Virus record (IMG/VR): IMGVR_UViG_3300025238_000051
Location: 1-33,851 of that record
Source of the DNA: a virus
DNA: 33,851 bases
Direction: 5' to 3' (one strand)
Under the pieces are notes generated by a model that saw only the letters and a list, made by a program, of their open reading frames with translations, was not told the DNA's origin and did no database searches. This document shows positions 20,544 to 30,241 of this stretch, one piece after another. The position numbers were made by a program, and so were the translations under genes. Within the stretch, counting starts at the first letter, position 1. Every line of letters starts with the position of its first letter.

Positions 20544-21348
20544 AGGCTCCAGCTGTTCCCATTGCGAGTTCATCCATGTAGCTTGTTTTTCGGTTAGGGG
20601 TTGGGCTGGCTTGCCTTGGATTAGCTGTCCAGTCTTCGCTCCAGAATTGCTTGTCGGGGTTAAGGAACGTTGCGGCGTGTTTGTTGTAGGTGTCTGTGGC
20701 TTCGCAGTAATTCCGATATCTTCTTGCGCCTTCGATGATGTCATTTGCTTTTACTCCCTTCGTGATCAGTTTCTTGAATTTTGTTCGGGCTTCGGTTTTT
20801 GCCCCCTTGCCCCCAGTGGCTGTGTTTGGGTATTCAGACCAAAAGATTTCAAAATCATTTTCCGTCTGTTCGTCTTTTCTTTTTTTTGTATTTTTTTCTT
20901 TTATATCTTGGTTATTGGTTATTGGTTTTTGGTTTGTTTTTTGGGAATCGTTATTTTTCAATGACTTATTTTTTAGTTGGGATTCCGAAGTCGTGCATTT
21001 TTTGACCGACTTAGTGTTCCCCAAGTCATCATTTTTTTTATGAACTTGTGGACGACCCGGCCCTGCTTTGGACTTAATTTTTTCAATTTCATCCATCACT
21101 CTTTTGTGTTTCCAATACCCATTTTCGAGGTAGAACTTTGCCAGAATTGTGTCCTTGATTTTATTCCAAGTCTTACGGTCGCACTTGGTTATCGTGCGCA
21201 GCTTTTCTTCATCATCGAGCAAGCCTTTTTCACCCGCATTGTAATGCGCTGTGATCATCATCATATAGCCACCGATCTCTGCCGTATTCATAGACATTGT
21301 GCCGGATAAAAAGTCACCGATATGAAACTGGACGTAGTTAATGCTCAT
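20506..21348 (-). CDS. DUF1376-type phage replication initiator
   Basis: The start is the ATG at 21348 (GGTGGAGAA upstream, ATGA overlap). The 280-residue product has an N-terminal DUF1376-like domain (Y-V-Q-F-H-I-G-D-F-L then T-A-E-I-G-G-Y-M-M-M-I-T-A-H-Y, about 1-90), a winged-helix type found in phage O-like replication proteins. A 60-residue Lys/Asn/Thr-rich linker (about 100-160) follows. The C-terminal domain has F-W-S-E-Y-P and A-A-T-F-L-N-P-D-K-Q-F-W, typical of phage initiators and helicase loaders. It probably binds the origin, which in lambda-like phages lies inside this gene. The linker DNA is strikingly A/T-rich with long T runs on the plus strand. Confidence 0.75.
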   Translation of the reverse strand: MSINYVQFHIGDFLSGTMSMNTAEIGGYMMMITAHYNAGEKGLLDDEEKLRTITKCDRKTWNKIKDTILAKFYLENGYWKHKRVMDEIEKIKSKAGPGRPQVHKKNDDLGNTKSVKKCTTSESQLKNKSLKNNDSQKTNQKPITNNQDIKEKNTKKRKDEQTENDFEIFWSEYPNTATGGKGAKTEARTKFKKLITKGVKANDIIEGARRYRNYCEATDTYNKHAATFLNPDKQFWSEDWTANPRQASPTPNRKTSYMDELAMGTAGAYEALCGQESDFH

Positions 21349-22667
21349 TTCTCCACCTGCCACATTGTTAAGACGGTTGTATTTATGTTTGTGCCGCTTT
21401 CACGGAAAGAACCAACAGGCAAATCATGCCAGCGATGCTTAAAACCCATTCCTTCAATTAAATCGTGGTCATATCTCGCTGTAATGGGAAGTATTGAACG
21501 CAGCTCGCCACCAGGTTTTAAAAACTTCATGGCATGCTTAATGTGCTTAGCGTAATGCTTGCCGTAGAAAGGCGGGTTCATAACAACGCGGTCATATTCT
21601 TGCGTTGGAATGGTTTCAAGGAAGTTCGCAACCAGAACATTGTGGCCCTTAGCGCGGCATTCATTTGCACGACCCTGATCAAATTCAATACCAAAGACTT
21701 TAGCGCCCTTATCGCGCAAAGCGTCCATAAATCGACCGCACCCGCATGATGGCTCAAGGATTTTATCACCCTTAACTTGATACATATCGTCTAAAACACG
21801 ATCCACGACCTTTTGCGGTGTAGGATAATATTGCAGATCCTTGGACACCTCTGTACTTTCACGTTTCTTTTCAGGTTTCGCTTCATGGCAATCCGGCAAC
21901 ACATCACCGTAATATTCGGCTAAGGCGCGGTTAATATCTTTCAGCGTTTCAGGCTCAAAGAACAGATGCCCATTGCCGTTTTGAAATGTTTTTAACCACA
22001 CGCCACGGGCAGGAAACCTAATGTGTTTACCCCTGTAATCTTTGTAATCCCATTCATTTAAAAGAGCGTCACCATTCTCAATAAGGGCTTGAATTTCAGC
22101 TCTTTCCGTCAATGACTTACCTTGATAGGCGGCTAAAGCATTTAGAACGTCACGCAGACGATCTTCACCAGAACTATAAAATGATTTTACACCATTAATA
22201 ATTATCCGCTTAGGCAGGCCCTTTACGCCGATCTTCACTTTTTCATGTGATTTGTATGCAGGATCCAATCCCGCAAAAACTTCAGCCAAGCCCCGCAATA
22301 TATTACCCCATGGGTCTGCCACATAATCGCCAAAGACGTCTTTTATGTCCGTCATGGTAAATGGCGGTGGATTTTCTAATAACTGCTCAAAACGCTTTTT
22401 ATCATTCGCAGGTGCAATCGTATCGATGTTTAATCCGTTATAAACATGCCACCATGCAGACTTGAGCAATGCCATTTTCATGGTTTCAGCATGCAAGCTA
22501 CCAGTATCAATTCTGGTTCGGTTGTAAGTGCCGCCGATTGTTGTGGCTAAACTAACTTTCTTACCGGCAGCCTCAAAAGCTGATTTTTCACTTTCGATTG
22601 CGTCAAACTTTTCAGTGTATTCATCTACAATTTCTGAAAGTTTTCTTTTTAGCGCTGGTAATGTCAC
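21345..22667 (-). CDS. DUF4942-like N-terminus plus adenine-type DNA methyltransferase
   Basis: The gene starts with GTG at 22667, in a GTGA overlap with the upstream stop and with AGGGAG 8 bases before it. The 440-residue product has an N-terminal helical DUF4942-like region (about 1-280). A class I methyltransferase follows: motif I L-E-P-S-C-G-C-G-R-F (about 304-313), a G-I-E-F-D acidic loop (326-330), and catalytic N-P-P-F at 364-367, as in N6-adenine enzymes. It would modify phage DNA, perhaps against host restriction, or control replication timing. No restriction partner is nearby, so it is an orphan methyltransferase. Confidence 0.8.
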   Translation of the reverse strand: MTLPALKRKLSEIVDEYTEKFDAIESEKSAFEAAGKKVSLATTIGGTYNRTRIDTGSLHAETMKMALLKSAWWHVYNGLNIDTIAPANDKKRFEQLLENPPPFTMTDIKDVFGDYVADPWGNILRGLAEVFAGLDPAYKSHEKVKIGVKGLPKRIIINGVKSFYSSGEDRLRDVLNALAAYQGKSLTERAEIQALIENGDALLNEWDYKDYRGKHIRFPARGVWLKTFQNGNGHLFFEPETLKDINRALAEYYGDVLPDCHEAKPEKKRESTEVSKDLQYYPTPQKVVDRVLDDMYQVKGDKILEPSCGCGRFMDALRDKGAKVFGIEFDQGRANECRAKGHNVLVANFLETIPTQEYDRVVMNPPFYGKHYAKHIKHAMKFLKPGGELRSILPITARYDHDLIEGMGFKHRWHDLPVGSFRESGTNINTTVLTMWQVEK

Positions 22668-22888
22668 CCCCCATACTCCCTTTTAGTTTCGTCCTTGAAA
22701 TACGTCTTTTCCAGCTCCTCAATGAAAAGCTTTAAAATTATTGGATTAAAGTTTTGAAAAGCTGGATCGAGAAAGTTCAGAAAAGCGGCTTGTTTTCTGC
22801 TTTTGTAATAGATTTCATTGGCCTGTTTTCTGAATGATTTTGATGTTAAATCGATTTGGTTTAATGGATACGGCAGGGTCTGGGTCAT
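22664..22888 (-). CDS. Hypothetical early protein
   Basis: The 74-residue frame is linked by 4-base overlaps to both the resolvase gene before it and the methyltransferase gene after it, which supports it being translated. It is basic in the first half (S-K-S-F-R-K-Q-A-N-E-I-Y-Y-K-S-R-K) and has a Leu/Phe-rich second half (about 36-62). No family is recognised, and there is no membrane segment or cysteine motif. Confidence 0.55.
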   Translation of the reverse strand: MTQTLPYPLNQIDLTSKSFRKQANEIYYKSRKQAAFLNFLDPAFQNFNPIILKLFIEELEKTYFKDETKREYGG

Positions 22889-23337
22889 GCCAACCCCACC
22901 ACTTCGATATATTTCAACAGTGCCAGCGCATCGGCTTCATTATCGTCTTTTGGATCAAAGCCTTGCGCTTTCATTGCGGCGACCATATCGGCCTTTTTCG
23001 CATTACCTTTGCCTGTTGCATGTTTCTTGATTGTTCCGACTGGCACACCCTCGATTGGAAGGTTTAACTCTGCACAATAACCCTTTACAATCGCAGCATA
23101 TCCACCGCGCATTTCTGTTGCTTTGCGGAACTTCATAAAACCTGGTTCTTCAAAGAAAATCTTTTCAGGTTTGGCGTCTTTCAGAATAGTATTGAACCAC
23201 ATGTAAAATTTTCGAAACGGCTCGCCTTCGTGGTCTTTCTTCTTGCGTTTAAAATCTGTAACGCCTGAATAAACTTGACCATCCAGCATATAAGCCCAGC
23301 CTGTTCTCGTTGCTAAATCTAAAGCTAGAAAATTCAT
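22885..23337 (-). CDS. RuvC-like Holliday junction resolvase
   Basis: The 150-residue product has the RuvC-type RNase H fold signature: L-A-L-D-L-A-T-R-T-G-W-A with Asp7, I-F-F-E-E-P-G-F with the acidic pair 62-63, and K-D-D-N-E-A-D-A-L-A-L-L with Asp131 and Asp135. G-V-P-V-G-T-I-K-K-H-A-T-G-K-G-N-A-K-K is the expected basic loop. Phage enzymes of this type cut branched DNA before packaging and may also debranch replication intermediates. It sits between two unknown early genes with 4-base overlaps. Confidence 0.85.
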   Translation of the reverse strand: MNFLALDLATRTGWAYMLDGQVYSGVTDFKRKKKDHEGEPFRKFYMWFNTILKDAKPEKIFFEEPGFMKFRKATEMRGGYAAIVKGYCAELNLPIEGVPVGTIKKHATGKGNAKKADMVAAMKAQGFDPKDDNEADALALLKYIEVVGLA

Positions 23338-23663
23338 ACTCCCCCCTTAAAATGATATTTTTCTGGTAGATACTGGTTGCACTCTGTCATGACGTTAATC
23401 ACCATCTGGCGCACATGATCCGGGTCAAACCCTGCCCATTCGCAGACAAGGCGAAAATCCTTGCTGTTGCCTGTGAACCAATGACGCGCATTATGTGCAT
23501 CTAGGGCCGTTGTCATACTTGTTGCTTTTGAAGGGTTCCACTTTTTCGGCTTAGGCTTTTGCGTTTTAACTGTGCCGAATGTGGCGTCGTAAATGGCTTG
23601 TTTAATGACGTACATCCAGACTTGCTGGCACTCGTCTACCTCGATATTGTTTGTAAATGTCAT
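23334..23663 (-). CDS. Hypothetical early protein with conserved W-F / D-P-D-x-V-R segment
   Basis: The start is the ATG at 23663, with GGGGGAT upstream. The 109-residue protein has an N-terminal helical part, a Lys/Pro-rich loop (about 35-45), and a conserved-looking segment A-R-H-W-F-T-G-N-S-K-D-F-R-L-V-C-E-W-A-G-F-D-P-D-H-V-R (about 62-84). I have seen similar patterns in uncharacterised phage and bacterial proteins near replication genes. It is the second gene after the leftward promoter. Function unknown; the pattern suggests a small DNA-binding helical domain. Confidence 0.6.
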   Translation of the reverse strand: MTFTNNIEVDECQQVWMYVIKQAIYDATFGTVKTQKPKPKKWNPSKATSMTTALDAHNARHWFTGNSKDFRLVCEWAGFDPDHVRQMVINVMTECNQYLPEKYHFKGGV

Positions 23664-23721
23664 GCAAATATCCCCCGACATTTGAAACACTTACACAGAA
23701 CTGTTGACAAACAGCTTTAGA

Positions 23722-23955
23722 TTATGATAAGTGTTGGTTGTTATGTTTATTTTTTGCTGATATCTCGATCAAAAGCTCAGCATTAATAGATGAAAGATGT
23801 CGTTTCTTTGCGCTGGACAACAAATCTGACCAGTGCTTTGAATCGACGCTATTTCGCATATGCCATTTATGAACCACCTGCTCTGAGACCTGACAATCTT
23901 TTGCGAGCTCGGTTCTGGTTGGCCACATATCTATAACGTCTCTAAAACCTTCCAT
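23722..23955 (-). CDS. Cro-like helix-turn-helix regulator, probably leaderless
   Basis: I choose the ATG at 23955. The longer frame would contain the operator and promoter. The 77-residue product has a helix-turn-helix pattern, R-T-E-L-A-K-D-C-Q-V-S-E-Q-V-V-H-K-W (about 14-31), then a basic helical tail, as in Cro/DicA-type proteins. It is divergent from the repressor gene across an 83-base operator region. The predicted start of transcription (near 23956) practically coincides with the ATG and no ribosome site is present, so translation is likely leaderless. It would shut repressor synthesis and favour lytic growth. Confidence 0.75.
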   Translation of the reverse strand: MEGFRDVIDMWPTRTELAKDCQVSEQVVHKWHMRNSVDSKHWSDLLSSAKKRHLSSINAELLIEISAKNKHNNQHLS

Positions 23956-23962
23956 GTTTAAG

Positions 23963-23991
23963 AGCGTACAATTTGTACACTTTAAAATCAA
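23963..23991 (-). promoter_or_regulatory. Leftward early promoter (PR-like)
   Basis: On the minus strand: -35 TTGATT (23991-23986), a 17-base spacer, -10 TACGCT (23968-23963). The operator 23966-23978 covers the spacer end and the first half of the -10. The promoter reads into the Cro-like gene and the replication operon. The start is expected at about 23956, one base from the ATG. Confidence 0.65.
23966..23978. promoter_or_regulatory. Operator site 1 (GTAC-N5-GTAC)
   Basis: GTAC, five bases, GTAC; the right side extends to GTACA. This overlaps the leftward early promoter, so a bound dimer of the S24 repressor (or Cro) would block it. The same element occurs three more times around the immunity region, one copy degenerate. 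Confidence 0.7.
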
Positions 23992-24016
23992 GTAAAAAAG
24001 TTGCGATTTGTACACT
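23988..24016 (+). promoter_or_regulatory. Putative repressor promoter (PRM-like)
   Basis: The -10 TACACT (24011-24016) has a very poor -35 (TCAAGT, 23988-23993) at 17-base spacing. Transcription would begin near 24023, leaving a short leader with AAGG before the repressor ATG. The weak -35 suggests activation by repressor bound next to it, as at lambda PRM. Confidence 0.4.
24001..24013. promoter_or_regulatory. Operator site 2 (degenerate half)
   Basis: TTGC-N5-GTAC: one perfect and one degenerate half-site. Its centre is 35 bases from that of operator 1. It overlaps the likely -10 of the repressor gene, so it would serve autoregulation. Confidence 0.5.
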
Positions 24017-24038
24017 ATTTTTTTTGTAAGGTTTAGAT

Positions 24039-24743
24039 ATGACAGAAACACCCGCAGATAGACTCACAAAATGCCGAATAGCGGCAGGATTCAAGACGCA
24101 GACATCAGTGGCTGAAAGGTTTGGCTGGAGTTTGGACACATACAAGAGTCATGAAAGCGGGCGCCGTGAATTTGCTAAAAAGTCAGAAGAATATGCAAGG
24201 GCGTTTAAAACGACCCCAGAATATCTGATGTATGGCGTAAAGCGAGAAGATACAGTTAAGAAAGTTGACTTGAACTATATTGAGGTCATTGCCCCTGTCC
24301 AGGCTGGTGAATGGCGTGAATCTGTGGAATACCCTGAAGATGACCGTGAAAAAATCCCCGTTCCGGAAGAATACGCGGGGAACGATAATATTTTTGCCGT
24401 GCGGGTTGTCGGTGATTCTATGAACCGTAAATTTCCAGAAAGTACGATTTTAATCTGTATCAACCCCTATCAATTGAATAGTCCAATAATGGACGGTGAT
24501 TGTGTAATCGTTCAACGTGTTCGCAATGGGGAATACGAAACAACTGTTAAATGCCTTAGCATAGAGGAAAAGACTGGCAGAGCTTTTCTAATGCCCAGCA
24601 GCGACAATCCAGCACACCAAGCCCCTATAATTGTTCCTTGGCCTTATATGGGCGATCCTTGCCCCTCTACGGGCATGGAGAAAGTGGAGATCATGGGTGT
24701 TGTATTGGATAGCATTAAAAAGAAAAAATTGAGGGATATATAA
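24039..24743 (+). CDS. CI-like lysogeny repressor, XRE plus S24 peptidase
   Basis: The 234-residue protein has an N-terminal helix-turn-helix (about residues 8-45: T-S-V-A-E-R-F-G-W-S-L-D-T-Y-K-S-H-E-S-G-R). A LexA-like C-terminal domain follows: the cleavage bond Ala89-Gly90 in V-Q-A-G-E-W, nucleophile Ser127 in V-V-G-D-S-M-N-R, and Lys171 in T-V-K-C-L. All parts needed for RecA-stimulated self-cleavage are present, so lysogeny should end on DNA damage. It is divergent from the Cro-like gene. Four GTAC-N5-GTAC operators at both ends of the immunity region are the likely targets. Confidence 0.9.
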   Translation: MTETPADRLTKCRIAAGFKTQTSVAERFGWSLDTYKSHESGRREFAKKSEEYARAFKTTPEYLMYGVKREDTVKKVDLNYIEVIAPVQAGEWRESVEYPEDDREKIPVPEEYAGNDNIFAVRVVGDSMNRKFPESTILICINPYQLNSPIMDGDCVIVQRVRNGEYETTVKCLSIEEKTGRAFLMPSSDNPAHQAPIIVPWPYMGDPCPSTGMEKVEIMGVVLDSIKKKKLRDI

Positions 24744-25102
24744 TGGATAGCAATATTTTAAGTGGGATTTACTTTATAATATTAGCCTGCGCTATTTGGT
24801 GGGCCGTAACAAATTATGAGATTATCAAACAAGATGAAGTGCCATTACTGCAAAAAACAGTTATAGCGGACAGGTTTAAAATACAGAATATCGATTACGT
24901 AGGTACAATTTTACTCGATACATCTACTGGTCAAACGTGGCAATATAGAACCTTGGTCGGCAAAAATGGCAAAGAACTTAAGGATGCAAATGGCAGATAT
25001 TGGGAAAAGATGGCATTTTTTGGCGATGATAAACATGAAGAGCGCAATTGGGTTAGTGATCAATTCAAAATTCAGGAATATGTAGACAATAATTCGGAAT
25101 AA
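24743..25102 (+). CDS. Membrane-anchored immunity-region protein
   Basis: The 119-residue protein begins at the last base of the repressor stop (TAATG), so it is co-expressed with the repressor in lysogens. Residues 6-25 form one membrane helix, and the rest is a soluble domain with a L-L-D-T-S-T-G-Q-T-W-Q-Y-R stretch (about 57-69), a pattern seen in other small membrane-tethered bacterial proteins. Expression during lysogeny suggests superinfection exclusion or lysogenic conversion, but this is inference. Confidence 0.6.
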   Translation: MDSNILSGIYFIILACAIWWAVTNYEIIKQDEVPLLQKTVIADRFKIQNIDYVGTILLDTSTGQTWQYRTLVGKNGKELKDANGRYWEKMAFFGDDKHEERNWVSDQFKIQEYVDNNSE

Positions 25103-25379
25103 CCCTCTTAAATTAGACTCCAGCACAGGCAAGATGTAGAATAAAAGCTACTTACTCGATTCGCATGTTCAACTGGCCCATACGTGGACACCCAGATGCG
25201 ATGAAAGTTTGCAAGGCAGATGTTTGAACCATCTAGCCGCTCGGTGCGAGGGGTATATTTTATAAGCTTTACCCAAGAACCGACCTGAGATGCTATGTGC
25301 GCAGGGTTGTAACGCACACTAGCCGCGATTTCCTCAACCTTATGGCTGAAGGATCCGACAGTCAGTAAGGATTAAACGC
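25103..25379 (+). other. Unassigned stretch with several hairpins between immunity gene and peptide
   Basis: I find no convincing gene here. Visible structure: AGATG/CATCT around 25217-25233, a TCGGT/ACCGA stem (25240s to 25280s) enclosing a GGGTA/TTACCC stem, and TGTGCG/CGCACA near 25295-25320. A minus-strand frame stays open from 25371 to 25108 (88 codons) but has only GTG/CTG starts, so it may be a remnant. The stretch could be a structured leader for the small peptide at 25380 or a decayed gene. Confidence 0.4.
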
Positions 25380-25454
25380 ATGTTTAATTTAAATCTGACA
25401 ATTAAAATTGACTATCGGCTGGCGATTGCCATTGCAACGCTTCTGATATCATGA
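25380..25454 (+). CDS. Possible small hydrophobic membrane peptide
   Basis: A 24-residue frame (M-F-N-L-N-L-T-I-K-I-D-Y-R then L-A-I-A-I-A-T-L-L-I-S) has AAGGA about 9 bases before its ATG and a strong terminator 6 bases after its stop. The C-terminal half is a short hydrophobic helix. Size and build resemble type I toxin or other small membrane peptides, with the gene squeezed between a structured leader and a terminator. No homologue is recognised. An antisense reading frame overlaps it on the other strand. Confidence 0.4.
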   Translation: MFNLNLTIKIDYRLAIAIATLLIS

Positions 25455-25543
25455 TTTTCCGGGCTGCCTATATGGTGGCCCGTTTTTTTATTCCACATCT
25501 TTACCTGTTCTAAAACCCGCAGAACCGTGTCTGCAAATCCCAT
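25412..25543 (-). CDS. Possible 43-residue antisense gene
   Basis: On the minus strand a 43-residue frame (M-G-F-A-D-T-V-L-R-V-L-E-Q-V-K ... A-M-A-I-A-S-R) has AGG about 5 bases before ATG. It lies downstream of a weak leftward promoter candidate at operator 3 (-10 TACACT, 25581-25576). Its DNA overlaps the peptide at 25380 and the terminator stem, so both strands cannot be under full coding constraint. It may be real, or only the transcript may matter as an antisense RNA. Confidence 0.3.
   Translation of the reverse strand: MGFADTVLRVLEQVKMWNKKTGHHIGSPENHDIRSVAMAIASR
25460..25489 (+). terminator. Intrinsic terminator of the repressor operon
   Basis: A 9-bp stem (two G-T pairs) with a 5-base TATAT loop, then G and seven T. 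It lies after the repressor, membrane-protein and peptide genes and before the rightward early promoter, so it isolates immunity expression from the early operon. Confidence 0.8.
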
Positions 25544-25578
25544 TATACCTAGAAAAATAAAAGAATACAGAAAAAAGT

Positions 25579-25591
25579 GTACTTTTTGTAC
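25579..25591. promoter_or_regulatory. Operator site 3 (GTAC-N5-GTAC)
   Basis: A perfect GTAC-N5-GTAC. Its centre is 35 bases from operator 4, the same spacing as operators 1 and 2. It lies upstream of the -35 of the rightward promoter and overlaps a weak leftward -10. Confidence 0.7.
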
Positions 25592-25600
25592 TTTTTCTTA

Positions 25601-25629
25601 TTGACTTATTGGTGTACGTATTGTACATT
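25601..25629 (+). promoter_or_regulatory. Rightward early promoter (PL-like)
   Basis: The -35 TTGACT (25601-25606), a 17-base spacer and -10 TACATT (25624-25629) form a strong sigma-70-type promoter. Operator 4 covers the spacer end and the -10. It would drive the small genes, recombination genes and xis/int. Confidence 0.75.
25614..25626. promoter_or_regulatory. Operator site 4 (TGTAC-N5-GTACA)
   Basis: A perfect 15-base inverted repeat (25613-25627 with the flanking T and A), lying across the -10 of the rightward promoter. Binding would block RNA polymerase directly. Confidence 0.75.
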
Positions 25630-25662
25630 AAATTTATAAGATGAAAAACAGAGGTAACTCAA

Positions 25663-25923
25663 ATGAACAACTACGAACAATCAGTCGATCAAATCACGAC
25701 AATCCTAAAAGCCGCTAAAGGCTTTCAAAATACACTTAACGAAATGTGTTACGACATCACAGATCAAGACGCTAAAGAGGGCATGATCGAAACGCTCGAC
25801 AGCATCTTCGAAGACCTGATGTCTGACGCTAAACACGAGCTGACCAAGCTGGAGGACAAAGCGCCATCAGACGGTAACGAGCCATGGCGTATGCGTCGCT
25901 GGCATAACGCTCGCACACTTTAA
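25663..25923 (+). CDS. Hypothetical early protein
   Basis: This is the first gene after the rightward promoter, with GAGGTAA upstream. The 86-residue acidic, helical product (Q-S-V-D-Q-I-T-T-I-L-K-A-A-K-G-F-Q-N-T-L, then D-S-I-F-E-D-L-M-S-D-A-K-H-E-L) has no recognised family. First position suggests high early expression, as for host-takeover or anti-defence proteins. Confidence 0.6.
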   Translation: MNNYEQSVDQITTILKAAKGFQNTLNEMCYDITDQDAKEGMIETLDSIFEDLMSDAKHELTKLEDKAPSDGNEPWRMRRWHNARTL

Positions 25924-25936
25924 TCTGGGGGAAATC

Positions 25937-26110
25937 ATGAAGACTATTTTTGACACATTTGTGGATGACGCCTGCCATTTGCAAGACAACTACCCTGCCG
26001 AATATAAGGCATGGGTCGATGAAGAAGAAAGAAAACTGGACGAAACGCTTTTTGCTAAAACCGAAGACCTTTTTGACCGCATGGATCAACTTGAATGGAG
26101 TTTTAACTGA
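25937..26110 (+). CDS. Hypothetical early acidic protein, 57 residues
   Basis: A short frame with GGGGGAA 4 bases before its ATG, ending in TGATG so that the next gene starts on its stop. The product is acidic (F-V-D-D-A-C-H-L-Q-D-N-Y, then D-E-E-E-R-K-L-D-E-T-L-F, then D-L-F-D-R-M-D-Q-L-E-W). Strongly negative small phage proteins can be DNA mimics, but this is only compositional. Confidence 0.6.
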   Translation: MKTIFDTFVDDACHLQDNYPAEYKAWVDEEERKLDETLFAKTEDLFDRMDQLEWSFN

Positions 26111-26361
26111 TGACATACGGGAAAGAAAACAGCGCGGTCTATTGGAAAACAAGATATCGGTTGCGTAATGAAGCTGTAATAGAGGCTGTAGATACGTTTT
26201 CAAAGCTTTTGAAGTGGCTGGATGACTACGATCTTTGGTCTGCTATGGATGATGTTGATATTAACAGCGAGGGGTTTAATTGGCCTGAAGATTTGGCTTC
26301 TGTTCAATCAGAAAACGCAAACTACGTTTTAAAGAAGCTGAAAGAAATGGTGGAATCATGA
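26110..26361 (+). CDS. Hypothetical early protein, 83 residues
   Basis: Translationally coupled to both neighbours (TGATG before, ATGA after). The product has a basic N-terminus and an acidic, Trp-containing middle (L-K-W-L-D-D-Y-D-L-W-S-A-M-D-D-V-D). No known family. Confidence 0.6.
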   Translation: MTYGKENSAVYWKTRYRLRNEAVIEAVDTFSKLLKWLDDYDLWSAMDDVDINSEGFNWPEDLASVQSENANYVLKKLKEMVES

Positions 26362-26555
26362 TCCGCGGAATCTTGATAGGTCTGGTTGTGGGTTATATCG
26401 CGGCACTGTTTGTCGTGTCGGTTCATGAGGCTAAGGCAACGGACATCACACAATGTGATAAGCAAAAGTTTTTAACCCAACACTACGCGCAGTTGATTGA
26501 CGACATGGGGATTATTCCCGTTGCGCCGATGCCGAGTGTTAAGCCTTGGAATTAA
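26358..26555 (+). CDS. Small membrane or exported protein
   Basis: The 65-residue product has an N-terminal hydrophobic helix (residues 4-22, I-L-I-G-L-V-V-G-Y-I-A-A-L-F-V-V-S) followed by A-K-A, a possible signal-peptidase site. A short tail with one Cys and several Pro follows. It overlaps the gene before by 4 bases. Envelope function or exclusion is possible. Confidence 0.55.
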   Translation: MIRGILIGLVVGYIAALFVVSVHEAKATDITQCDKQKFLTQHYAQLIDDMGIIPVAPMPSVKPWN

Positions 26556-26560
26556 CTTAT

Positions 26561-26614
26561 GGGGGCGTATCACGTTAGCAGGTACTGCCAGTTCGACTCT
26601 GGTATGCGCCCCCA
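26561..26614 (+). ncRNA. tRNA-like element: acceptor-type stem plus T-arm, no D or anticodon arm
   Basis: A 54-base element folds into a 9-bp stem (26561-26569 with 26605-26613, starting with five G-C pairs). Next comes a 6-bp stem (26586-26591 with 26599-26604) closed by the seven-base loop TTCGACT, the T-loop consensus of tRNA. The two stems abut exactly on the 3' side, as the acceptor and T stems do in tRNA. An A follows as discriminator, then CCC instead of CCA. The 16 bases between (26570-26585) are too short for D and anticodon arms. It lies in the untranslated gap between a small gene and the Erf gene. Confidence 0.5.
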
Positions 26615-26648
26615 CCCGAACAAAGTAGGAAACCCGAAGGAGAAGTAG

Positions 26649-27341
26649 ATGAGTAAAGAATTGACGACGCAGACAGAAGACCCGTTTTACGGCTTAATTG
26701 AACAGGCAATGCAACAGGAAAATGGCATTGACGTTGTTGAGCGCATGCTGGATGCACAAGAACGCGTCATGAATAAAAACGCCGAAATTGCATTTAACAA
26801 AGCAATGAACGCGGCACAAAATGAAATGCCGGTTATCGCAAAAACAACCAAGGCGCACAATTCAAAATACGCCAAGTATGAAGACATTGATAAGGTGGCC
26901 CGTCCGATTTACTCAAAGCATGGGTTCGGTATTTCCTACGGCACAAAGCCAAGCCAAGTTGACGGCTTCACGGTTTACTTTGCTGAGGTCACGCACGATG
27001 CAGGCCATACGAAATACTATGAACGCGAGTTCCCATCTGATGCCAGCGGTTCTAAAAACGCTATTCAGGCCAAGGCGTCTGCTGAAAGCTATGCCAAGCG
27101 ATACCTGCTGATCGGTATCTTTAACATTGTCACCTGCGATGAAGACGATGATGGCAACATGGCACGGGTTGCGCGTATCGATGAAAATCAGGTTAAGCAG
27201 CTTGAACGCCTGCTGGAGGCTAGCCAAGCCGATAAGAGCGGTTTCCTGAATTACATGGAAGTTGATGCGCTGGAAAATATCAGCTCAGCAGACTTCCAAA
27301 AAGCCAGAGTGGCCCTGAACAAAAAGGCGGCGCAGAAATGA
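26649..27341 (+). CDS. erf: Erf-family single-strand annealing recombinase
   Basis: The 230-residue product follows a GGAG ribosome site. It has the ERF-family core: E-I-A-F-N-K-A-M-N-A-A-Q-N-E-M-P-V-I-A-K, then K-Y-A-K-Y-E-D-I-D-K-V-A-R-P-I-Y-S-K-H-G-F-G-I-S-Y, and A-S-A-E-S-Y-A-K-R-Y-L-L-I-G-I-F-N-I-V-T (about 133-155). It anneals complementary single strands made by the neighbouring exonuclease, which allows circularisation and recombination, as P22 Erf does. A C-terminal region of about 60 residues is variable. The next gene overlaps by 4 bases. Confidence 0.88.
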   Translation: MSKELTTQTEDPFYGLIEQAMQQENGIDVVERMLDAQERVMNKNAEIAFNKAMNAAQNEMPVIAKTTKAHNSKYAKYEDIDKVARPIYSKHGFGISYGTKPSQVDGFTVYFAEVTHDAGHTKYYEREFPSDASGSKNAIQAKASAESYAKRYLLIGIFNIVTCDEDDDGNMARVARIDENQVKQLERLLEASQADKSGFLNYMEVDALENISSADFQKARVALNKKAAQK

Positions 27342-27946
27342 TTGCGCACGATGTAGAACAAGGCACGCAGGAATGGTACGACCTGCGCAGGGGCATCCCT
27401 ACAGGATCAGGATTTTCCCGTATCATCACGCCAACGGGACAGCAAAGCAAACAGGCTGATGAATATATCCATGAGCTACTGGGAGAAGTGCTGTGCAGCG
27501 ATGAAGATAATGTTCTGGATAATCTGTACTGGATTGCACGGGGCAAGGAATTAGAGCCAAAAGCGGCGGCGTTGTACGAACTGCAAAACGATGTGAAGAC
27601 GTTCAAGACAGGCTTTATCACAAACGACGATATGACCGCAGGCGTGTCACTGGACCGAATTGTTGGTAATGATGGCGCAATCGAAATCAAATGCCCCTGC
27701 CCTAAAACACACCTATCAGCGTACTTCGCGAAAGAGATAGACGCGAAATACAAGCCGCAGGTGCAAGGCCAGATATGGATTGCCGAACGTGAATGGGTTG
27801 AGTGGATTTCCTACCACCCTGAACTGCCAATGGCGCAAATACGTGTTTATCGGGATGAAGACTATTTGAAGAAATTCGAAAAATATCTGACCGAATTTAA
27901 CGAGAAACTAATGGAAAAGCTTAACCAATTAAAAGGAGAAATATAA
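27338..27946 (+). CDS. YqaJ / lambda-exonuclease-type recombination nuclease
   Basis: The 202-residue protein opens with Q-G-T-Q-E-W-Y-D-L-R-R-G-I-P-T-G-S, the YqaJ/lambda Exo signature. The PD-(D/E)XK core has E71/E73 in G-K-E-L-E-P, Asp106 in V-S-L-D-R-I-V-G, and Glu116-x-Lys118 in A-I-E-I-K-C-P. It resects double strands 5' to 3' to feed the Erf annealer. It forms an exonuclease-annealer-SSB block with its neighbours, overlapping Erf by 4 bases and the ssb start by 1 base. Confidence 0.9.
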   Translation: MIAHDVEQGTQEWYDLRRGIPTGSGFSRIITPTGQQSKQADEYIHELLGEVLCSDEDNVLDNLYWIARGKELEPKAAALYELQNDVKTFKTGFITNDDMTAGVSLDRIVGNDGAIEIKCPCPKTHLSAYFAKEIDAKYKPQVQGQIWIAEREWVEWISYHPELPMAQIRVYRDEDYLKKFEKYLTEFNEKLMEKLNQLKGEI

Positions 27947-28395
27947 TGGCTAAATCACTAAACCGCGTCGATCTGATCGGCAGACTTGGAAAAGACCCAG
28001 AGCAAAGAGCGATGCAGAGTGGCGACACTGTTGTTAGCTTTTCACTGGCGACATCCGAAACATGGAAAGACAAGCAAGGCAACAGACAAGAGAAAACTCA
28101 ATGGCACAATTGTGTGTCGTTTAACCAAGGTCTGAACAAGGTTTTGACAAGCTACGTCAAGAAAGGCTCGCAGATCATGGTTACAGGCGCGCTTGAACAC
28201 AGCAGTTACGAAAAGGACGGGGTGACAAAGTACAAAACTGAAGTTGTTTTGCGCCCGTTTGACTCATTTTTGCAACTCTTAGACAGCAAGTCTGAAGCGA
28301 ATGAGGGGGCGACTTCTTCCCAGAGTTCACAACAAGCCCCCTCAACCTCGGATTGGCAGGCGCCGGATGATTTTTCGGACGAAGTGCCCTTCTGA
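27946..28395 (+). CDS. ssb: Single-stranded DNA-binding protein
   Basis: The 149-residue product has the SSB OB fold (N-R-V-D-L-I-G-R-L-G-K-D-P-E, then W-H-N-C-V-S-F, then V-K-K-G-S-Q-I-M-V-T-G), a short Ser/Gln-rich linker, and the classic acidic tip D-D-F-S-D-E-V-P-F, which recruits partner proteins. It protects single strands during recombination and replication with the Erf and YqaJ proteins. Confidence 0.95.
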   Translation: MAKSLNRVDLIGRLGKDPEQRAMQSGDTVVSFSLATSETWKDKQGNRQEKTQWHNCVSFNQGLNKVLTSYVKKGSQIMVTGALEHSSYEKDGVTKYKTEVVLRPFDSFLQLLDSKSEANEGATSSQSSQQAPSTSDWQAPDDFSDEVPF

Positions 28396-28457
28396 TTAAA
28401 CCCCAACATGGCCGCTGAAATCCTCTGTTTTTCATCGAATATAGGACGCCAAAACCA

Positions 28458-28493
28458 GCCCGGTAAAGCCAGCGATAAAGTCCGGGCAATTTT
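28458..28493 (+). terminator. Weak hairpin after ssb, possible attenuator
   Basis: GCCCGG and CCGGGC (6 bp) enclose an 18-base loop, followed by AATTTT. The stem is short and the T run poor, so partial termination at most. Confidence 0.3.
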
Positions 28494-28505
28494 AAAGGAC
28501 AAGGA

Positions 28506-28733
28506 ATGAACAAGAATTTAGCAGACAGATTAAACAAGTTTATTGATGACTGTAACGCGCGAATTGACGCAATTGAGTCACAAGTCAAATCAAAGGAATT
28601 TGTTTATCAGGAAACCATCAGGGAACTTAAACAGGAGCTAAAAAATGCTAATGCTGAAATCAACGCACGAAAAGATTGCAGAACAATTCCAATCACAGTT
28701 GTTGAAAGCAAACGAAAGATTGAAGCTCTATGA
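28506..28733 (+). CDS. Small coiled-coil protein
   Basis: The 75-residue, highly charged helical product (N-L-A-D-R-L-N-K-F-I-D-D-C-N-A-R-I-D-A-I-E, then Y-Q-E-T-I-R-E-L-K-Q-E-L-K-N-A-N-A-E-I) looks like one long coiled coil. AAGGA precedes the ATG. No family recognised. Confidence 0.55.
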   Translation: MNKNLADRLNKFIDDCNARIDAIESQVKSKEFVYQETIRELKQELKNANAEINARKDCRTIPITVVESKRKIEAL

Positions 28734-28806
28734 CGAAATCTTTGAACGTCAATCCAGTTACAACAGGATAGCGCGAGAGAATAAGAAAAAGGCAGCAAAG
28801 AAATGA
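28645..28806 (+). CDS. Small basic helical protein, 53 residues
   Basis: Overlaps the end of the coiled-coil gene in another frame, with AGGAG 6 bases before its ATG and an ATGA overlap with the next gene. The product is basic and helical (K-S-T-H-E-K-I-A-E-Q-F-Q, then N-R-I-A-R-E-N-K-K-K-A-A-K-K). The good ribosome site and coupling support translation. Confidence 0.5.
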   Translation: MLMLKSTHEKIAEQFQSQLLKANERLKLYDEIFERQSSYNRIARENKKKAAKK

Positions 28807-29000
28807 ACAAAGAACTTACACATCCACCAAGAAGACAGCAGGAGATAATAGATGCGTTACGGGGAACCGCATTGCAAAACTGGAACATCGATGACGAACT
28901 TGCCACGCGCTGCAAATTACAAGCGGACCGACTGGAAGCCGAGCTTGAAGCCCACCGAGACAATAATAATGGCGGTTGGAAACTGGCAACTGATATTTGA
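28803..29000 (+). CDS. Hypothetical small protein, 65 residues
   Basis: Coupled to the gene before by ATGA. The product has P-P-R-R-Q-Q-E-I-I-D-A-L-R near its start and a helical acidic middle (L-Q-A-D-R-L-E-A-E-L-E-A-H). No family recognised. Confidence 0.5.
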   Translation: MNKELTHPPRRQQEIIDALRGTALQNWNIDDELATRCKLQADRLEAELEAHRDNNNGGWKLATDI

Positions 29001-29154
29001 CAGGGCCGAGCCAATATTGCCTTGGTGCTGGTTTCAGGATTACACAGACGAAGGGTTTAGGGCAGACATGAGAAATGATGGCCGGATATATATGAGTGGT
29101 CACAGAACGCAATTAGACGCCGAAACATGGGCAAAAGGGAAAGGGATAATTTGA
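28969..29154 (+). CDS. Hypothetical small protein, 61 residues
   Basis: I choose the ATG at 28969 because the earlier start at 28852 would overlap the previous gene almost completely. The ribosome site is weak (GAGA). The product carries W-C-W-F-Q-D-Y near residue 17. No family is known. The next gene begins on its stop (TGATG). Confidence 0.4.
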   Translation: MAVGNWQLIFDRAEPILPWCWFQDYTDEGFRADMRNDGRIYMSGHRTQLDAETWAKGKGII

Positions 29155-29657
29155 TGACAAACCTAAGCAAAGAAATAAAAGAGCTAGAAGAAAAACTAGC
29201 GGAACTGAAAGAAAAGCACGATGCCGCGCAGAAGGAGCCTGTGGAGGTCGTGGGGCAGTATAAGGCCGAAATCTACCAAGACTATTTTTCTATTCACGAG
29301 TTTGGTTTTATAGATGATAAAGCAAATTACCATCAAGAAATATTAGATAAAGCAGTCTTAATAGGCAACTCCTTCCGCACCCGCGAACAAGCCGAGCGTC
29401 GATTAGAGAGCATCAAGACGCATGAAGAATTGCGTAGGTTGGCGCATGAGGCTTGGGGTAACGGGATTATTAACTGGTGTAGTCATACTCAACATAAATA
29501 CTATGTCGAACTTCACTTTGACGATTTTTTGGTTGATTTTGATCTGACGTACAAGCGCGCAAATACCGTCTACTTCCCAACCAAACAATCAGCACAAGAC
29601 GCAATCGAAAAGATCGGTGAGGAACGGATTAAGCAGTATATAGAAGGTGATCAGTAA
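29154..29657 (+). CDS. Hypothetical protein with N-terminal coiled coil
   Basis: The start is the ATG at 29154 (TGATG overlap, AAAGGGA upstream). The 167-residue product begins with a clear coiled coil (about 2-30, K-E-I-K-E-L-E-E-K-L-A-E-L-K-E-K). A mixed domain follows with N-S-F-R-T-R-E-Q-A-E-R and F-P-T-K-Q-S-A-Q-D-A-I-E-K-I-G-E-E-R-I patterns, suggesting two related helical segments that pack against a beta sheet. Not recognised. Confidence 0.6.
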   Translation: MTNLSKEIKELEEKLAELKEKHDAAQKEPVEVVGQYKAEIYQDYFSIHEFGFIDDKANYHQEILDKAVLIGNSFRTREQAERRLESIKTHEELRRLAHEAWGNGIINWCSHTQHKYYVELHFDDFLVDFDLTYKRANTVYFPTKQSAQDAIEKIGEERIKQYIEGDQ

Positions 29658-29887
29658 TGGATAAAACATTAGAAGACGCAATGAAAATAGTCGATTGGTC
29701 ACGCAAGGATAAAAACAATGGCGTACCTCTGCGCGACTGGTTTGCTGGTCAGGCTTTACAATCTTACACCGCGGCTTTTTACAGCAGTAGCGTGTCGGCC
29801 ATTACGAGCGAGAGTGATGCACGTGAAATAGCAGAAGGTTCTTACATGATAGCAGACGCGATGATGAAAGCGAGGGGTGATGACTAA
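29657..29887 (+). CDS. Conserved small phage protein (R-D-W-F-A-G-Q-A-L type)
   Basis: The 76-residue product has G-V-P-L-R-D-W-F-A-G-Q-A-L-Q-S near residue 22, then I-A-E-G-S-Y-M-I-A-D-A-M-M-K-A-R near the end. This arrangement is known from many prophage early regions; its function is unknown there. Confidence 0.65.
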   Translation: MDKTLEDAMKIVDWSRKDKNNGVPLRDWFAGQALQSYTAAFYSSSVSAITSESDAREIAEGSYMIADAMMKARGDD

Positions 29888-30056
29888 CATCATAAAACTC
29901 ATACACGAAAACAAAGCCACCATAGAGCTACACACAGGCCACACGTTCAACACAGATGCAGAACACAAGGCGTTTGTTGCAGGCGTTAAGCATGCGGTGA
30001 ATTCATTGGGTTTGATGGCAGATAATATTGTTAATAATGCGGAGATTAAGCAATGA
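29880..30056 (+). CDS. Hypothetical small protein, 58 residues
   Basis: Overlaps the preceding gene by 8 bases in a different frame and couples to the next (ATGA). The product has H-T-G-H-T-F-N-T-D-A-E-H-K-A-F-V-A-G-V-K-H-A-V near its middle. The frame uses its codons evenly with neighbours, and overlaps at both ends are as in the rest of the operon. Confidence 0.5.
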   Translation: MTNIIKLIHENKATIELHTGHTFNTDAEHKAFVAGVKHAVNSLGLMADNIVNNAEIKQ

Positions 30057-30241
30057 AGAAAGATAGTAACATATGTGATACCAAATGCAGGTCTGCTTTT
30101 GAGGAGTGGTATGAAGATGGTTGGTCATCTTACAACGTAAAACTTGAAAGAAGTGGTGATGGTTACGCTCAAACGTTGGCAGAAGACCAATGGGAGGCAT
30201 GGCAAGCCGCATGGAAAGCGAGAGGAGAGATTGATGATTAA
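30053..30241 (+). CDS. Small phage protein with W-x-A-W-Q-A-A-W motif
   Basis: The 62-residue product has A-F-E-E-W-Y-E-D-G-W near residue 15 and Q-W-E-A-W-Q-A-A-W-K near residue 46, a pattern common in small phage proteins of unknown function. Coupled to both neighbours. Confidence 0.6.
   Translation: MKKDSNICDTKCRSAFEEWYEDGWSSYNVKLERSGDGYAQTLAEDQWEAWQAAWKARGEIDD

Follow-up and report, generated by a model that had tools for sequence, protein, structure and literature searches.

The window analyzed here, a stretch of DNA of 33,851 nucleotides, corresponds to an integrated prophage (prophage contig G000:C9; about 34.3 kb) whose ends share 51 bp belonging to the 3' part of tRNA-Thr(GGT), giving an attachment core of about 51 bp. 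The prophage-host junctions were located on host contigs C6 (G000:C6:140170-140242) and C2 (G000:C2:441886-441940). In addition, an 8943-base metagenomic viral contig, L005 (IMGVR_UViG_3300001587_000004), is 100% identical to positions 21282-30224 of the window. The putative immunity region, summarized in Table 1, runs from a leftward cro-like gene across a first operator block (OR) to a rightward S24-type repressor gene, ORF119, a second operator block (OL) and the left operon, which is the order of lambda in mirror image. After its first gene, the left operon encodes an Erf-like protein, an exonuclease and SSB, with an integrase at the far end.

Table 1. Predicted features of the immunity region and their positions in the window.
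Feature	Position	Strand	Description
cro-like HTH gene	23722..23955	-	First gene of the right operon; PHROG 2856; weak carph-isopro and YdaS matches
PR	23963..23991	-	TTGATT, 17 bp, TACGCT; serves the cro-like gene; from sequence
OR1 GTACAATTTGTAC	23966..23978		Intact GTAC-N5-GTAC; across the PR -10; matrix rank 2, 14.6 bits
OR2 TTGCGATTTGTAC	24001..24013		Degenerate, one GTAC half only; 35 bp from OR1; over the presumed cI -10
PRM, presumed -10	24011..24016	+	TACACT; putative cI promoter without a good -35; from sequence, by inference
cI-like repressor	24039..24743	+	HTH + S24; PHROG 4, E 2e-29; PF00717, E 4e-12
ORF119	24743..25102	+	Overlaps the cI stop with its start; position corresponds to that of lambda rex; from ORF list
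Terminator stem	25460..25482	+	Before OL/PL, predicted to end the cI transcript; terminator scan
OL2 GTACTTTTTGTAC	25579..25591		Intact GTAC-N5-GTAC; matrix rank 3, 11.9 bits
PL	25601..25629	+	TTGACT, 17 bp, TACATT; promoter scan
OL1 GTACGTATTGTAC	25614..25626		Intact GTAC-N5-GTAC; across the PL -10; matrix rank 1, 15.0 bits
First left-operon gene	25663..25923	+	Predicted to be driven by PL; from ORF list

The GDSM motif of the repressor was invariant, and by inspection A89-G90, S127 and K171 fit a cleavage site and a catalytic pair. Among solved structures a LexA chain was the sole match (E 0.003); what is shared with lambda CI is the S24 fold only. Family searches gave no match for ORF119, nor did they place the first gene of the left operon in a known family. 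ORF119 and a protein encoded by the distant phage L106 (L106:7786-8067) are both small, start with a hydrophobic segment, lie between cI and OL, and share an LLDT-x-TG-x-x-W stretch. Proteins of this type are possibly lysogeny-stage products whose genes occupy the position of lambda rex. The interval from ORF119 to the terminator (25103-25459) is a long stretch without a clear gene, with a minus-strand open frame at about 25108-25371 that has no good start. Positions 25103-25490 matched no Rfam family, and their folding was barely above that of shuffled sequences (z -1.8).

The initial annotation had described the two blocks flanking the immunity region as related over 54 ungapped bases with about 35 identities, and the count is exactly 35/54 when the minus strand of 23963-24016 is aligned with 25576-25629 on the plus strand. 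When the two intergenic stretches were shuffled 300 times with dinucleotides preserved, the score was at most 35, and a free search found a best 54-mer in the same register with 36 identities. The identities are divided among the GTAC positions (14/16), the -35 box (5/6), the N5 spacers (4/10) and the remainder (12/22). Outside GTAC, 21 of 38 positions agree (shuffle P = 0.007), and outside the operators and the -35 box 12 of 22 (P = 0.05). On this division, the likeness is mostly one of the same parts in the same places; the blocks may possibly go back to a duplication. The strong promoter with an intact operator across its -10 was recovered in both blocks; at the other site, TACACT can be read directly from the DNA of the opposite strand. 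Two GTAC-N5-GTAC sites had been assigned to each block, which is correct for OL, where both are intact; the OR block holds one intact site and a second that matches 6/8 motif positions, a score equalled by 0.24% of window positions. The 35-base distance between site centres was nevertheless found in both blocks, so that each carries two operators 35 bp apart, and the starts of OR1 and OL2 are separated by 1613 bp.

A search for the same pairs in relatives, suggested alongside the initial annotation, found that the module recurs in many other phage contigs. In IMG/VR, two GTAC-N5-GTAC sites 35 bp apart were identified in 56 stretches, and sites with spacings of 20-50 bp in at least 119; 86 loci from the operator scans were excluded as repeats, either codon-level or GC-rich. 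Among the matches listed, a repressor homologue lay near 23/37 loci with 34/35-bp spacing and 7/12 with 26-bp spacing, against 2/25, 0/62 and 0/24 in the other match classes, counts that are partly circular since the queries L064, L106 and L077 came from such loci. The window repressor alone, used as query, already recovers many of the loci found operator first. In 18 loci that were examined, one intact site precedes cI and spans the -10 of a cro promoter of the TTGC/TTGAC kind, and an OL pair, mostly with a spacing of 35 or 26 bp, precedes the next operon at 0.67-3.34 kb from OR. OR2 was found at +35 in 15 of the 18, at 34 in L083 and at 49 in L080, and was not found in L074. In most relatives OR2 matches 7/8 positions and is thus stronger than the 6/8 site of the window. 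A third OR site, close to the start of cI at +58, was also found in most of the 18 loci, but it is absent from the window and from L074. Four AT-rich contigs (L106, L046, L053 and L077) encode repressors only 15-18% identical to that of the window and have the same operator core, with site spacings of 34/35 and 24 bp. The IMG/VR contigs are partly near-duplicates and represent roughly eight distinct lineages by repressor identity. The named carriers of the module are Rhizobium and Sinorhizobium. A scan of genome contigs with a TTG-anchored pattern returned four loci, against about two expected by our own estimate, and two of the four carry repressors.

As the relatives were found partly by the motif, the supports least exposed to this selection are a matrix test on the window, a repressor-first sample and the fixed positions of the sites. 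An operator matrix was built from 54 sites of the 18 other phages, with the window left out. Its three highest scores in 33.8 kb fall on the window sites at 25614, 23966 and 25579, in that order; the next best position reaches 6.7 bits, 5 bits below the three intact sites. The OR2 of the window has a weak matrix score (-2.8), yet it stands at the position predicted from the relatives.

In the repressor-first scan, the L064 repressor retrieved 54 contigs that share the S24 domain and often differ in the N-terminal half; L216 and L256, with truncated or odd N-terminal halves, were not counted. All 13 contigs with an INKNTLIS-type HTH have GTAC at OR together with a 7/8 site at +35, and 12 of them have a downstream OL pair, spaced by 35 or 26 bp and in L209 by 22 bp; the remaining contig ends early. 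Where other HTHs are joined to the same S24 domain, GTAC was found at OR in 0/39 (P = 1.6e-12, which overstates the independence of the data because the contigs are related). The 14 contigs with an HPSAINK helix instead have TGCGA-N3-TCGCA upstream and downstream of cI without exception, with OR sites 34 bp apart and an OL pair at 35 bp (34 in one); most of their second and third sites depart from this motif at one or two positions. A third class, with a DSINKYL helix (L219, L229, L231, L235, L237, L246, L251 and L253), seems to use weaker GGATT-N3-AATCC-like operators, present as 40-bp pairs downstream of cI and, in part of the contigs, upstream as well. For the AHPQITQ helix class, no operator common to both ends was found. 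The recognition helix of the window repressor, SLDTYKSHESGRRE, differs partly from that of its relatives, NKNTLISHENGNRA. In the stretches fetched for S24 relatives from the family, order and class of the host there were no GTAC sites, and a second query added nothing; the GTAC code thus holds for particular HTHs only and not for the whole S24 family.

The presumed -10 of PR ends 7 nt ahead of the cro ATG (23955-23968 in the window). In nearly all phages examined (L034, L064, L074, L080, L083, L192 and L217-L240) this distance is 6-9 nt, and it is just as fixed in the TGCGA class. Because the -10 ends so close to the ATG and the distance is conserved, the cro message is predicted to be leaderless.

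Based on these comparisons, it is highly probable that the two blocks represent the OR and OL regions of a temperate phage and that its S24 repressor binds GTAC-N5-GTAC at both. The gene order, the conserved module and the change of operator together with HTH make it very probable that both early operons are under the control of a single repressor. A repressor dimer at OR1 would cover the -10 of PR and turn off cro and the right operon, and a dimer at OL1 would in the same way cover the -10 of PL and turn off the left operon with its recombination and integration functions. Occupancy of OR2, over the presumed cI -10, would damp cI. Following DNA damage, RecA-stimulated self-cleavage of the repressor would release both operons. 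Operator binding, cooperativity across 35 bp, cI autoregulation and SOS induction are what we infer for this system.

It is very improbable that the likeness of the blocks reflects chance or the sites of a host regulator, for example LexA. The GTAC half is a palindrome in its own right, and six further GTAC-N5-GTAC places occur in the genome, one of them within this prophage. However, the window contains four such sites where 0.09 are expected, three of them inside the two blocks, and these three are among only nine places in the whole 2.28-Mb genome; position and spacing are also kept in diverged phages. The alphaproteobacterial LexA box, GTTC-N7-GTTC, differs from GTAC-N5-GTAC. The evidence is evenly balanced on whether the Cro-like protein is the main ligand or shares the sites with the repressor, each with different preferences. 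In lambda, Cro and repressor both bind the same operators. The cro-like genes are homologous and occupy the same place in all GTAC-class relatives, and in the swapped class they change along with the repressor HTH, which makes Cro possible as a second ligand. With Cro as the sole ligand, however, the early promoters would be left without a lysogenic repressor, and the operator tracks the repressor HTH exactly; this tracking is compatible with shared use, since Cro co-varies.

A further proposal is that OR and OL are joined by a loop of about 1.6 kb, which would strengthen repression and let OR2 shut down cI, as in lambda. The two-ended layout is conserved over the range of OR-OL distances given above, paired sites occur at both ends in many phages, and the S24 domain is of the kind found in lambda CI. 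Two promoters that need the same repressor would, however, account for the two blocks without any loop, and the OR-OL distance is as short as 0.67-0.75 kb in three relatives, where OL comes directly after cI. We consider looping rather unlikely, and control of both operons by the S24 repressor is the reading that we retain.

A broader interpretation is put forward tentatively, as we judge it slightly less probable than its opposite. These phages may constitute a family outside the lambdoid group with near-fixed 34/35-bp operator pairs at OR and OL, in which the spacing would be set by the S24 domain or by promoter geometry and not by the operator. Exchange of the HTH would have changed OR and OL together while the spacing was kept, the C-terminal domain would carry cooperativity and OR-OL bridging, and a leaderless cro, not cI, would underlie the lytic choice. 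The observations themselves extend the two-ended operator layout known from lambda to phages whose operators are unrelated, and they provide natural HTH exchanges in which the sites on both sides of cI, kilobases apart, changed in concert while their spacing was kept. Because such exchanges exist, it becomes testable which part of the repressor sets the operator spacing and how new immunity specificity arises.

The DNA of the region showed no similarity to known phages, and a tblastn search with cro gave no match in the phage collection. In phiLM21, Caulobacter DMCA and Nostoc Nsp-JY10, the perfect palindromes that recur did not form a clear OR/OL pair. No report of a GTAC operator was found in a literature search for which most subscription journals were out of reach. 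Phage 16-3 of Sinorhizobium meliloti resembles the present phage in being a temperate phage of an alphaproteobacterium, and its operators are of another type, ACAA-N4-TTGT. Apart from the C repressor of phage 16-3, no regulator is known to act on PL as well as PR of that phage (PMC3694467). The gene order recurs in the Rhizobium phages RHph_N28_2 (MN988516) and RHph_TM3_3_3 (MN988468), where a cro-like gene, an S24 repressor and the left operon are ordered as in the window, with repressors about 27% identical to that of the window. RHph_N28_2 has GTAC-N5-GTAC before cI and a pair before the left operon; it differs from the window in a 26-bp spacing of the OL pair and in an OR2 that matches 7/8 positions. 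The record of RHph_N28_2 carries no such annotation, and an operator annotation is now at hand for rhizobial phages whose records lack one.

Lambda has three operators per block, about 24 bp apart, with OR and OL separated by about 2.3 kb, and its cI message from PRM is leaderless. As in lambda (OL-rex-cI-OR-cro), cI and cro of the window diverge from shared operators, the position of rex after cI is taken by a gene, a second operator block precedes the left operon with PL in the same direction as cI, and the repressor is of the S24 type with an HTH, self-cleavage being predicted from the motif. The window differs in its operator, GTAC-N5-GTAC, in having two OR sites (three in relatives) with a spacing about one helical turn longer, in the 1.6-kb distance from OR to OL, and in that cro, not cI, is predicted to be leaderless. 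Because OR2 of the window sits on the presumed cI -10, it is the counterpart of lambda OR3, the shut-off site, and not of lambda OR2, the activating site, in whose place the window has none. The equation of the two blocks with lambda OR and OL under one repressor, as first proposed, is supported by gene order, by the recurrence of the module elsewhere and by the change of operator with HTH, whereas the number of sites, their spacing and the role of OR2 set this phage apart from lambda.
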